Part shown: positions 8,823-13,144 of the stretch, one piece after another
Position numbering within the stretch: position 1 is the stretch's first letter
How the letters are laid out: each line of letters starts with the position of its first letter
DNA from: a virus
Virus record (IMG/VR): IMGVR_UViG_3300046007_002763
Coordinates: 1 to 30,594 of that record
Direction: 5' to 3' (one strand)
Length of the DNA: 30,594 nucleotides
The notes under the pieces: model-generated
What the model saw: the letters and a program-made list of their open reading frames with translations, nothing else
What the model was told of the DNA's origin: nothing
The model's database searches: none
Program-made: the position numbers and the translations under genes

Positions 8823-8924
8823 CATTTATATTATTGGTGGAGCATTAATATAATTTAAGAAATTTTTAAAAGCCTAATAGTGCGGAACTCCACTTCCAAT
8901 CTGTTGGGCATTTTTTTTACGTGT
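8823..8924 (+). promoter_or_regulatory. structured leader with competing hairpins, possible attenuator
   Basis: Two stems cross each other. GTGGAG at 8837-8842 pairs with CTCCAC at 8888-8893. GCCTAATA at 8872-8879 pairs with TGTTGGGC at 8902-8909 (two G-U pairs) and is followed by eight T's at 8911-8918. The second stem is a terminator-like hairpin set between promoter and gene. Both could form only as a pseudoknot; otherwise they compete. The ligand or regulator is unknown. Confidence 0.5.
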
Positions 8925-9587
8925 ATGAGTGGTTGGATAAAATTAAACAGAGAAATTAATAATCATTGGGTTTTTCAAAATTCAGATTATTTTAAATGGT
9001 GGGTTGATATTCTTTTAGAAGTTAATTACGCACCAGCAAAAGTTGTTATAAAAGGTAAAATATACGAATGTGATAGAGGAGAAAAATTATATTCTTTAGA
9101 CACTTGGGCAATACGTTGGAAAACTAATAAAAGTAAAGTAAGACGTTATTTTGACTTGTTGCAAAAAGAAAATATGATTGAGTTAAAAAATGAAACGCAA
9201 ACAACACGCCTTAAGGTTTGTAAATACGAGGATTACCAAGAAACAGAAAAAGAAAGTGAAACGCAAACGAAACGCAAACGAAACGCAAACGAAACGCATT
9301 TGACACCAATTAAAGAAAGTAATAATAATAAAAATATAATAGATAGTAAAGCGAATTTAGAAATTCGCACACTCGCATTTAAAGAAACATTAATACCATT
9401 TAAACAAAAATATTCTATTGAAATGCTAAAAGACTTTTTTGGATATTGGACAGAACCAAATAAAAGCAATACTAAATTAAAATTTGAATTGCAGCAAACT
9501 TGGAGTATAAGCAGAAGATTAGAAACTTGGGCTAAAAATGATAAAACTTTTGCACCTAAACAACAAATTAAACAAGATAGATTATGA
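8925..9587 (+). CDS. replication initiator (winged-HTH phage replisome organiser type), 220 aa
   Basis: The start is ATG 8925 (MSGWIKLNREI), after the T8 of the leader; a GTG at 8880 in the same frame falls inside the hairpins and is unlikely. Residues 1-100 show the pattern of phage replication proteins with a winged HTH: SGWIKLNREI, an RGE(K) strand turn, then TWAIRWKTNKSKVRRYFDLLQKENMIE. A basic linker (TQTKRKRNANET) is encoded by the iterons. The C-terminal part (FFGYWTEPNKSNTKLKFELQQTWSISRRLETWAKND) recurs in Bacteroidota phages. It probably binds the iterons in its own gene, like lambda O, and loads the replisome. Its stop overlaps the next start by 4 nt. Confidence 0.75.
   Translation: MSGWIKLNREINNHWVFQNSDYFKWWVDILLEVNYAPAKVVIKGKIYECDRGEKLYSLDTWAIRWKTNKSKVRRYFDLLQKENMIELKNETQTTRLKVCKYEDYQETEKESETQTKRKRNANETHLTPIKESNNNKNIIDSKANLEIRTLAFKETLIPFKQKYSIEMLKDFFGYWTEPNKSNTKLKFELQQTWSISRRLETWAKNDKTFAPKQQIKQDRL
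9192..9301 (+). repeat. 11-bp iterons, candidate replication origin
   Basis: GAAACGCAAAC occurs at 9192-9202, then three times in perfect tandem at 9258-9268, 9269-9279 and 9280-9290, and a diverged fourth copy (GAAACGCATTT) follows at 9291-9301. The first copy is 66 bp (six repeat lengths) before the tandem set. An AT-rich stretch at 9316-9350 follows and could be the unwinding element. Related AAACGCATTT copies lie at 9601-9610 and 9611-9620. Confidence 0.7.
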
Positions 9588-10093: not shown

Positions 10094-10922
10094 TTTTAAT
10101 TTTGAAGATTTAACTAATAATGTAGAACCAATTTTAGACTTTAAACAAATATTTAAAGATGCTTTAATTGACCCTGCAGAAGAAATAAAACAGCAACCGA
10201 TTGCATTAAGCATTGGCGAAAGTAATTACAAAGGAAATAGTTATCCAATACCTTTTGGCTCGTATGGTGATTTTAGTTGCATAGTAGGTGCTTCTAAAAG
10301 TAGAAAAACATTTTTTAAATCTATGATTGAAGCAGCTTATATTGGTGGTAAATCAAACATTTATAATCCAAGTATTAAAGGACATAACAACGATAAAAAA
10401 TTTGTACTTTCATTTGATACAGAACAATCACATTTTCACGCACAAAGGGTACAGCGTAGAGTATTAGAATTAATAGGTGGTAATTGTGATTATTATAAAA
10501 CTTTTGGATTGCGTAGTTATACACCTAAAGAGCGTTTTGATTTTATTGATTGGGTTGTATTTGAAAGCGATTTTAAAGATAACATAGGTTTAATGTCAAT
10601 AGATGGTTTTGTAGATTTAGTAACCGATTTTAATAGTTTAGAACAAAGTACAGGTTTAACAGAAAAATTATTAAATTGGACTGCAAAGGGTAAAATGCAT
10701 TGCACAGGAATACTACATAAAAACTTTGGTACTGCTAAACCTGTAGGACACGTTGGTAGTAGCGTATTAAAAAAAGCTGAAACTGTAGTATTTGTAGAAA
10801 AAGATGATGATGATGTAACAGTAGTTAAATGCGAATATTCACGTAACCAGCCATTTAAAGAAATTAAATTTAACGTAGATGATAACGATTGGCTACCTAA
10901 AGAAATTCAAGATTTTATATAA
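10086..10922 (+). CDS. RecA/DnaB-fold ATPase, probable replicative helicase (AAA_25/RepA type), 278 aa
   Basis: Walker A is G68-ASKSRK-T75 (IVGASKSRKTFF), Walker B is around D173 (GLMSIDGF), and D111-TEQ-S is the RecA-fold acidic motif. This pattern is typical of short RepA/AAA_25 ATPases that act as hexameric DNA helicases in phages and plasmids. At 278 aa there is no primase domain, so priming must come from the host or another protein. It is flanked by the putative loader and NinB in one tightly packed operon. Confidence 0.75.
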   Translation: MNDFNFEDLTNNVEPILDFKQIFKDALIDPAEEIKQQPIALSIGESNYKGNSYPIPFGSYGDFSCIVGASKSRKTFFKSMIEAAYIGGKSNIYNPSIKGHNNDKKFVLSFDTEQSHFHAQRVQRRVLELIGGNCDYYKTFGLRSYTPKERFDFIDWVVFESDFKDNIGLMSIDGFVDLVTDFNSLEQSTGLTEKLLNWTAKGKMHCTGILHKNFGTAKPVGHVGSSVLKKAETVVFVEKDDDDVTVVKCEYSRNQPFKEIKFNVDDNDWLPKEIQDFI

Positions 10923-11356
10923 TGAATTATGAAATTAGAAGCGAGGTTAAAAACGGAACTTTAACACGCAACAGAAATTTAATTAAAGATGCAATAGAAA
11001 CTTTTGAGGGTAAGCAAATAGTAATTAAAATTGAAAAGGCAAAGAAAAAAAGAAGTACGCAGCAAAACCGATTTTATTATGGAGTTATAATACCTATAGT
11101 ACAAAATTGTTTGAAAGAAGCTGGGCATATAATGACAAACGAAAGCACACACGATTTAATTAAACTAAAGTTTTTAAAAGAAGCACTATTTGTAAATGAA
11201 GAAACAGGCGAAGTAATAGAACGTATAAAATCTACTACCGAACTTTCAACAAGTCAATTTATGGATTTACTCGCAGAAATTAATAACTTTACATTTGAAT
11301 ACTTTGGTGTTAGTTTACCAAGCCCAAACGATGATTTAACTTTAAAATTAGAATAA
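10922..11356 (+). CDS. ninB: NinB-like recombination protein, 144 aa
   Basis: The N-terminal IVIKIEKAKKKRSTQQNRFYYGVIIPIVQNCLKEAG carries the diagnostic RSxxQNRxYY motif of the NinB family (lambda Orf). That protein binds single-stranded DNA and helps RecBCD/RecFOR-independent recombination. The C-terminal half (TTELSTSQFMDLLAEINNFTFEYFGVSLPSP) also fits. Length is close to lambda's 146 aa. The first base overlaps the last base of the preceding stop. Confidence 0.8.
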   Translation: MNYEIRSEVKNGTLTRNRNLIKDAIETFEGKQIVIKIEKAKKKRSTQQNRFYYGVIIPIVQNCLKEAGHIMTNESTHDLIKLKFLKEALFVNEETGEVIERIKSTTELSTSQFMDLLAEINNFTFEYFGVSLPSPNDDLTLKLE

Positions 11357-11381: not shown

Positions 11382-12560
11382 ATGAAAATCAATTTAATAC
11401 ACAAAATTAACAATGATAAATATACAGAGTATGTTTATGAAGCATTTGACATTCAAAATCAAAATGAATCTAATGTAATTGTAGAAGCAAATTTAGAACA
11501 TTTACCAAAAGATTGGAATATTGGTGTTGTTTACGGTGGTTCTGGGACAGGTAAAACTACTATTTTAAAAAATTATTTTAAAAAAGAAATGGATAAATCA
11601 TATTTTGATAATTCTAAATATTTAATATCTAATTTTGATTGGTTAGAACCTAAAGATGCTACTTTTTTATTGAGTGCTATGGGTTTAAGTTCTGTACCAA
11701 CTTGGTTAAGACCATTTAACACGCTTTCAAATGGTGAACAATACAGAGCAAATCTTGCTTATATTGTAGGAAGTGCGAAAGAAAACGAAGTTATATTAAT
11801 TGATGAATACACATCTGTAGTAGATAGAGATGTCGCAAAAGCTATGAGTAATGCGTTGCAAAAATATATTAGAAGAACTAATAAACGTATTGTATTAGCT
11901 TCTTGCCATTTCGATATAATGGAATGGTTACAACCAGATTGGATATATTCACCATCAAAAGGGCGTCTTGAAATAGCGCCATCACTTCGGCAACCAAGTT
12001 TTGAACTTCAGATTGTTCGATGTAGATATGAAACTTGGAAATTATTCAAGCAAAATCATTATTTAACAGAAGATTTAAATAAAGCAGCAAAATGTTTTGT
12101 AATTTTGTTTAATGACAAACCAATAGCATTTATGGCAATATTACCATTCCCAAGTGGTGTTATTCAAAATGGATATAGAATTTCTAGAATTGTAGTGTTG
12201 CCAGATTTTCAAGGATTAGGAATTGGTTTTAAAATTTGTGATTGGTTTGGTCAAGTTTATAAAAATGATAATAAAACAATTTATATAAAAACATCTAATC
12301 CAGCTTTATGGTCTGTTTTTAATAATTCAAAAAATTGGTTATTTTGTGGTGAAACAAAAGGAGAAGAAAAAGCAGAAATGATGCAATCTAAAAAACAAAA
12401 AACACAAGGAGAATATAATACATCTGCAAGAATTTCTAAATCTTATAAATTTATAGGAATTAAAAACGATATAAATACAGATTTAATAACTTTTAACGCT
12501 GATGCTTGGAAAGATGTAGCACAAAATCAAATTAGTATTTTTGATATTTTAAATAATTAA
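11382..12560 (+). CDS. ABC ATPase fused to GNAT acetyltransferase domain (COG2401-like), 392 aa
   Basis: Residues 45-200 form a soluble ABC ATPase: Walker A G53-SGTGK-T59, signature L115-SNGEQ, Walker B VILI-D141-E142 and switch His176 (ASCHFD). No membrane segment is present, so it is not a transporter. Residues 205-375 are GNAT-like: a conserved-looking HYL (226-228), then VVLPDFQGLGIG (271-282), the acetyl-CoA-binding motif Q-x-x-G-x-G. The C-terminus Q383-ISI-F387 resembles the sliding-clamp-binding motif. The fusion corresponds to what I know as COG2401. The GNAT fold is also that of Mu Mom, a DNA-modifying enzyme, so a role in DNA modification or anti-restriction is possible. It lies between ninB and ninG with a 25-nt gap and its own start signal. 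Confidence 0.8.
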   Translation: MKINLIHKINNDKYTEYVYEAFDIQNQNESNVIVEANLEHLPKDWNIGVVYGGSGTGKTTILKNYFKKEMDKSYFDNSKYLISNFDWLEPKDATFLLSAMGLSSVPTWLRPFNTLSNGEQYRANLAYIVGSAKENEVILIDEYTSVVDRDVAKAMSNALQKYIRRTNKRIVLASCHFDIMEWLQPDWIYSPSKGRLEIAPSLRQPSFELQIVRCRYETWKLFKQNHYLTEDLNKAAKCFVILFNDKPIAFMAILPFPSGVIQNGYRISRIVVLPDFQGLGIGFKICDWFGQVYKNDNKTIYIKTSNPALWSVFNNSKNWLFCGETKGEEKAEMMQSKKQKTQGEYNTSARISKSYKFIGIKNDINTDLITFNADAWKDVAQNQISIFDILNN

Positions 12561-12562
12561 CA

Positions 12563-13144
12563 ATGACATTTTTTGATGAAATTTTAGAAACAAATAATAT
12601 GCAAAAAATATATCAAAGAAAATGCGTAAGCTGTAAAAATAAATTTACACCGCAGAATAATACGCAAATATGTTGCAGCCCAAAATGTGCTATTGATTAT
12701 ATGAAAAGTAAAAACGCAAAAGATTGGCAAAAAGAAAAGAAAATACTTAAAGAAAAGTTAATGACAAAATCGGACTACTTAAATATTTGCCAAAAGGTTT
12801 TTAATACTTACATACGTACAAGGGATAAAAATAAAAACTGTATAAGCTGTAATAAAAAGTTAATAGGTAAATACGATGCAGGACATTTTTTTTCAGTAGG
12901 TGCTTATCCAAACTTACGATTTAATGAAAATAATGTATTTGGGCAATGCGTTCATTGTAACAGAGATAAACACGGAAACGTAAAAGAATACGATTTAAAA
13001 CTTCAAAACATTTTAAGTACAGAAGATTATAACCAATTACTAAACGATAGAAATAAACCTGCTTTATTAAGTATTGATGATGTAAAAGAATTAATAGCAA
13101 TATACAGGGTTAAAACAAAAGAATTAACCAATGGGAAAAACTAA
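12563..13144 (+). CDS. ninG: NinG-like recombination endonuclease, 193 aa
   Basis: An N-terminal zinc finger (C21-VSC-24 ... CCSPKC near 37-42) is followed by a basic linker and the NinG core. This includes YLNICQKVFNTYIRTRDKNKNCISCNK, DAGHFFSVGAYPNLRF (the AGHFxS motif) and QCVHCNRDKHGN. It is the lambda Rap fold, a Holliday-junction and D-loop endonuclease of HNH/treble-clef type. The start at 12563 is two bases after the previous stop; ATG 12599 (MQKIYQRKC) is a reasonable alternative. Together with NinB it points to a lambda-like recombination module. Confidence 0.85.
   Translation: MTFFDEILETNNMQKIYQRKCVSCKNKFTPQNNTQICCSPKCAIDYMKSKNAKDWQKEKKILKEKLMTKSDYLNICQKVFNTYIRTRDKNKNCISCNKKLIGKYDAGHFFSVGAYPNLRFNENNVFGQCVHCNRDKHGNVKEYDLKLQNILSTEDYNQLLNDRNKPALLSIDDVKELIAIYRVKTKELTNGKN

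Follow-up and report, generated by a model that had tools for sequence, protein, structure and literature searches.

The sequence studied is a virus record of 30,594 bases (the window). It holds an early gene module that includes an SSB-like protein and a DnaD-like helicase loader, and within this module lies a gene for a protein that joins an ABC ATPase to a GNAT acyltransferase (ABC-GNAT; Table 1). The ORF begins 25 bases downstream of ninB, and ninG starts 2 bases past its stop codon; the initial annotation had placed it between these two genes, and profile matches (PHROG 72, PF05766) bear this out. The helicase-loader gene suggests that the phage relies on the host replisome. Nowhere in the 30,594-base window was there a match to a ParB profile, or a Mom gene. 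The segment 10086-10922 encodes a 278-residue protein with a possible P-loop (GASKSRKTFF) and no Pfam or PHROG match; its relatives lie close to ABC-GNAT in 16 related loci, and it is possibly a RepA-like replication ATPase.

Table 1. Features of the ABC-GNAT locus in the window, and formyltransferase genes at related loci (L numbers)
Feature	Position	Strand	Basis
DnaD-like helicase loader	8880..9587	+	PHROG 2514 E=7.5e-27
NinB/Orf recombination mediator	10922..11356	+	PHROG 72 E=6.3e-18; Pfam 23.3 bits, slightly below the 23.8 cut-off
ABC ATPase-GNAT fusion protein, 392 aa, ATG start	11382..12560	+	PHROG 11143 E=3.8e-135 over aa 1-363
ABC ATPase domain, about aa 1-198	11382..11975	+	residues invariant in 104 relatives; Foldseek matches to solved ABC ATPases
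Walker A, GGSGTGKTT	11532-11558	+	sequence
Signature LSNGEQ, aa 115-120	11724-11741	+	sequence
Walker B, VILIDE, aa 137-142	11790-11807	+	sequence
Switch His176	11907-11909	+	sequence; invariant in 104 relatives
GNAT acyltransferase domain, aa 209-357	12006..12452	+	PF00583 E=6e-7; AlphaFold2 models
His226-Tyr227 motif of the GNAT domain, aligned with Mom His48-Tyr49	12057..12062	+	conservation in 104 relatives; hhalign
QGLGIG acyl-CoA pyrophosphate-binding loop, aa 277-282	12210..12227	+	sequence; conservation in 104 relatives
Conserved C-terminal peptide FNADAWKDVAQNQISIF, aa 371-387	12492..12542	+	column conservation in 88 relatives; motif enrichment; low-confidence tail in model
QISIF clamp-binding-type core, aa 383-387	12528-12542	+	as for the C-terminal peptide
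NinG/Rap junction endonuclease	12563..13144	+	PF05766 E=1.3e-40
Formyltransferase gene	L086:6113-6727		PF00551
Formyltransferase gene	L087:6131-6601		PF00551
Formyltransferase gene	L096:1826-2473		PF00551
Other formyltransferase loci	L122, L125, L129, L139-L142, L153, L154, L159, L169, L173		PF00551

The protein had been read at the outset as an ABC ATPase-GNAT fusion with all the named motifs, and the ORF, motif positions, Pfam, conservation and structural model all agree with that reading. Among 104 diverse relatives, G52, S54, G55, G57, K58, L115, S116, G118, D141, E142 and H176 of the ABC half are present in every one (104/104), as are F222, Y227, R269, V271, P274, Q277 and G278 of the GNAT half; H226 is kept in 103 of 104. 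Within the QGLGIG loop, Q277 and G278 are thus invariant, with G280 in 97 and G282 in 100 of the 104. The GNAT domain exceeds the Pfam cut-off for PF00583 over residues 220-302. With the 104 relatives in the alignment, AlphaFold2 gives one confident two-domain model of the full-length protein (pLDDT 91.5, pTM 0.86), in which confidence falls only at about residues 331-350 and over the last 20 residues; the GNAT domain modelled alone has a pLDDT of 87.1. Neither sequence nor model contains a coiled coil or a zinc hook. Identification as an ABC transporter was rejected: the ATPase is fused to a GNAT domain, the neighbours are NinB and NinG, and no permease adjoins. A known defence system was likewise set aside, as PADLOC yields weak ABC-type matches only. 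Sequence searches for a solved homologue returned weak ABC or generic GNAT matches only.

The family and its published prediction

Homology to PHROG 11143, for which that resource gives no known function, extends over the full length of the protein. Its identity is 62% to the homologue of Nonlabens phage P12024S and 48% to that of Tenacibaculum phage pT24. By tblastn, homologues appear in 73 annotated phage records, with hosts that include Nonlabens (62%), Gordonia, Leptospira, Aeromonas, Pseudomonas, Porphyromonas and Lactococcus; pattern scans find at least 589 viral stretches and at least 427 in genomes of bacteria or archaea, and many of the latter look like prophages because terminase and portal genes lie nearby. 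The fusion is not universal: phages of Lactococcus, Streptococcus, Oenococcus, Enterococcus and Thomasclavelia encode ABC and GNAT separately, in a pair of genes that adjoin or overlap. At three such loci, from Lactococcus, Streptococcus and Oenococcus phages (L089:3968-5022, L094:3875-4944, L095:3878-4938), the records name the ABC gene as an ABC transporter (iron-siderophore or another type), which is probably a mistake. The frame in the pT24 record (L083:3995-5167) is broken by one stop codon and is annotated as two ORFs, each named ABC transporter. Nor is the ninB-ninG setting conserved; many other phages and prophages have a ParB-like neighbour, often with a terminase gene nearby.

The initial annotation saw here a candidate for an undescribed system, which the evidence does not support. 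The ABC ATPase-GNAT family, with phage pT24 cited as the example, has been predicted to modify DNA bases with an acyl group of unspecified kind (PMC7824862); going by the passage of that paper that treats the family, the core idea that it modifies DNA bases is already in print as a prediction, and is not new. Our literature search found no experimental test of this predicted modification by ABC-GNAT. The published family, as described in that passage (PMC7824862, pT24), has the same domains in the same order as the window protein and is homologous to it over the full length. The branch in the window differs from it in having a conserved C-terminal clamp-type tail and no adjacent ParB-like gene, neither of which figures in the passage (PMC7824862). 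What is apparently new, as far as the portions of the literature surveyed go, is this clamp-tail branch, the tail held in common with methylases and a Mom homologue, and the exclusion between tail and ParB.

The clamp-type tail and its other carriers

Proteins that bind the bacterial sliding clamp carry the consensus QL[S/D]LF or QxxLF, and PolC has QLSLF at its C-terminus (PMC12309361). The likeness of the end of ABC-GNAT to this motif, seen from the start, is confirmed by its distribution. A strict pattern, Q-[ILVTM]-x-[LMI]-F, is found close to the stop in 113 of 246 complete family members, versus 7 of 1,713 neighbouring proteins; a narrower one, Q-[IL]-[SDN]-[LM]-F, is found in 61 of 246 versus none of the 1,713. 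In close relatives one of QISMF, QISLF, QISIF, QLSLF, QTRLF or the like nearly always stands at the C-terminus or a few residues before it. In 88 distinct close relatives a variable linker is followed by a conserved F-N-A-D-A-[YW]-K-[DE]-V-A-Q-N-Q-I-S-[ML]-F, with Q and F of the core invariant; its fourth position is I in the window protein and M, L or I in the relatives. The tail of a second subclade is shorter and of another kind; it ends QLTLF, KITLF, QIKLF or SLTLF. The C-terminal QISIF is far above chance. Model confidence drops from 95 (residues 361-370) to 74, 58 and 45 over residues 371-392; the window tail thus combines, as clamp binders do, an evolutionarily conserved motif with an end that is predicted to be accessible and flexible.

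The tail is found on other proteins of related phages. Unique neighbours of ABC-GNAT (1,209 proteins in 381 families) were surveyed for [QEK]-x-x-[LMI]-F at the protein end, and 14 have it. Nine of these 14 are DNA-modifying enzymes: an N6/N4 DNA methylase cluster (PF01555) accounts for seven, and the other two are a C5 cytosine methylase (PF00145, ending QTELF) and a Mom protein. Of the remaining five, three come from a single small, uncharacterised family and two have the look of chance matches. The Mom protein (L235:7065-7697; PF25680 E=3.5e-25) ends NQTKLF and is encoded by a phage that also encodes ABC-GNAT; among Mom-like relatives, a clamp-like tail occurs in only 2 of 22. The small family (L049:2205-2642 and relatives), encoded near ABC-GNAT, has KQQQFLF or KQQQLLF at the end of 3 of its 27 members and may, to judge by these ends, be another clamp client.

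All 79 complete viral relatives of the methylase at L180:7949-8581 end in a Q-containing clamp-type tail, mostly QLTMF, QIRMF or QQRLF, with F at or beside the stop in 66 of the 79. The tail is degenerate at the last position in the other 13 (scan of loci L307-L386, first match of each). The N6/N4 methylases modify bases in situ and share the C-terminal motif with ABC-GNAT (QIRMF, QLTMF, QQRLF), whereas their fold and chemistry are unrelated to it. The neighbour survey and the methylase scan together indicate that in related phages the clamp tail is a mark of DNA-base modifying enzymes of unrelated folds; on this sequence evidence ABC-GNAT appears as one more carrier.

The GNAT domain, Mom and TmcA

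Comparison of the GNAT domain with Mom and with other GNAT families, a course indicated by the initial annotation, gave a divided answer. On one side is a profile match around the His-Tyr pair. Mom of phage Mu (PF25680, PDB 8bv8) is of GNAT type and has, like ABC-GNAT, an invariant HY near the N-terminus of the domain (His48-Tyr49 in the Mom alignment); hhalign pairs the one HY with the other, along with the half-domain around it, with a probability of 83-94% and P of 1e-5 to 1e-7, depending on direction. A RimI control matches Mom at 0.5% (P 0.1; the RimI alignment is small, at 6 sequences, and a wider search added four more weak matches only), and it matches the ABC-GNAT family at 94%, over the CoA-binding half. 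On the other side, membership of the Mom family was rejected: no PF25680 match appears down to E=1, where Mu Mom itself scores 253 bits. The invariants of the second half of Mom (NSES, D139, Y149) are not shared, as the profile alignment ends before them; ABC-GNAT has there an intact Q-x-x-G-x-G CoA loop, QGLGIG, and it differs from Mom also in its fused ABC ATPase. As these profile comparisons portray it, the family joins a front half like that of Mom to an acyl-CoA loop of the ordinary kind.

Fold comparison is less discriminating. The best 50 PDB matches that Foldseek returns for the modelled GNAT domain are ordinary GNATs that act on proteins or small molecules, with RimI, Naa50 and polyamine acetyltransferases nearest, and Mom 8bv8 is absent from those 50; since the search returns ordinary N-acetyltransferases, the fold of the model by itself leaves the substrate undecided. 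With the full-length model, TmcA (2zpa) stands 11th and 14th among the PDB matches (E 4.5e-7), with a low TM-score (0.17-0.27). TmcA is the tRNA(Met) cytidine acetyltransferase, which makes N4-acetylcytidine and so acts on the exocyclic amine of a nucleic-acid base. Its ATPase domain precedes its GNAT domain, in the same order as in ABC-GNAT; it differs in having a RecD-like helicase and an RNA substrate, where ABC-GNAT has an ATPase of the ABC kind and only a weak match to PF13718 (GNAT_acetyltr_2; E=0.03, 14.1 bits versus a cut-off of 24.6).

Routes to DNA and the reading of the locus

In distant phages a ParB-like gene lies immediately upstream of ABC-GNAT, usually overlapping it; five of six such proteins tested match PF02195 at E<0.001, three of them above the curated cut-off. 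ParB-like proteins are known in DNA-modification systems, as DpdB in Dpd and DndB in Dnd (PMC12839542, PMC12704722). On a family tree of 115 members, built with the tail columns left out, 58 have an upstream ParB-like gene, 30 have the clamp tail, no member combines the two and 25-27 have neither; over all loci an adjacent ParB and a clamp tail occur together in 0 of 115 cases, an exclusion that rests on few independent evolutionary changes (3-4 for ParB, 4-8 for the tail). The pattern follows the tree, so it is better described, as far as sequences tell, as replacement at the level of lineages than as many independent events. With about a quarter of the members lacking both, no single recruiter is universal, and the ParB-like gene is a common companion of the family without defining it.

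One subclade has a further component. In 15 of 15 of its loci a PF00551 formyltransferase gene overlaps the end of ABC-GNAT, giving a ParB/ABC-GNAT/formyltransferase operon; its members come from Pseudomonas, Porphyromonas, Prevotella, Gordonia, Chromobacterium, Novosphingobium and others. The overlap suggests that a further formyl step may take place there.

The account that best fits these observations is that ABC-GNAT writes an acyl-type DNA base modification, coupled to replication by a tether to the host sliding clamp; we put the probability of this at about 0.6. That is, the C-terminal peptide, with its QISIF core, would hook onto the host beta clamp, so that the enzyme acts on newly replicated phage DNA; the ABC part would bind or remodel DNA in an ATP-dependent manner, its dimers closing, gripping the DNA and exposing a base; the GNAT part would use acyl-CoA and, as in Mom, an active-site His-Tyr to attach a small group of acyl type to an exocyclic amine, adenine being the likeliest base; and a plausible benefit of the mark would be to shield the phage genome from restriction. 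In other branches the ParB-like protein from the upstream gene would target the DNA in place of the clamp. Clamp recruitment is proposed from the conservation of the tail, and base modification from the sharing of the tail, the Mom-like motif and the prediction in the passage already cited (PMC7824862); the ATPase step and the identity of base and group we infer. The initial annotation had proposed a DNA-modifying enzyme with a clamp tether. As a prediction this gains from the conserved tail, its presence on methylases and a Mom homologue, and the Mom profile match at HY; also in its favor, one of the best PDB fold matches is TmcA, which has an ATPase domain and N-acetylates a base in nucleic acid. 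Against it count the failure of Foldseek to single out Mom, the missing PF25680 match, the tail in only 2 of 22 Mom-like relatives and the low TmcA TM-score.

Other perspectives keep parts of this picture and change the substrate. The tail might bring the GNAT domain to DnaN or to clamp-bound host proteins, whose acetylation would switch the fork to the phage or disable a host enzyme. The nearest solved folds and the canonical acyl-CoA loop fit such a protein acetyltransferase at the replisome, and phage Rac is a protein-targeting GNAT (PMC7824862); this account leaves unexplained why DNA methylases and a Mom homologue have the tail too, why other branches have a ParB-like partner and why the profile match is specific to Mom, and we regard it as unlikely. 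By analogy with TmcA, the substrate could instead be an RNA base, as in tRNA N4-acetylcytidine. The alignment of 2zpa over both domains and the weak PF13718 match speak for this, but the match lies below the cut-off, the ATPase is of the ABC kind and not a RecD-type helicase, and clamp tail and ParB partner point to DNA; this seems very improbable.

A different view starts from the genes on either side. The protein might be a soluble ABC ATPase resembling SbcC or UvrA that senses DNA structures for the NinB/NinG pathway, with the GNAT domain as a regulator, and a position between ninB and ninG in an early replication/recombination operon is what such a recombination or repair factor would have. 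The neighbourhood is not conserved, however, the GNAT motifs are invariant, and the protein is without the coiled coil or zinc hook; we consider this role quite unlikely.

The clamp-tethered writer of a base modification can be set in a wider frame, which we offer tentatively, at somewhat less than even odds. In phages of Flavobacteriia and relatives, unrelated writers (ABC-GNAT, N6/N4 and C5 methylases, Mom) would independently bear a hook for the beta clamp at the C-terminus, and modification would thereby keep pace with the fork; in ABC-GNAT the hook would replace a ParB-like DNA-loading partner, and the formyltransferase branch would carry out a novel two-step acyl/formyl base modification.

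Through this analysis a vague prediction from the literature becomes a set of claims that experiments can address: catalytic residues (H226, Y227) and a route to phage DNA (clamp tail versus ParB). The mark can be sought in cultured phages, namely Nonlabens phage P12024S, whose homologue has a QISLF tail, Lactococcus phage P335, which has split ParB-ABC-GNAT genes, and Leptospira biflexa phage LE4. If the reading is true, hundreds of phages and prophages would carry an additional DNA base modification, and phages would couple DNA modification to replication by way of the host clamp.
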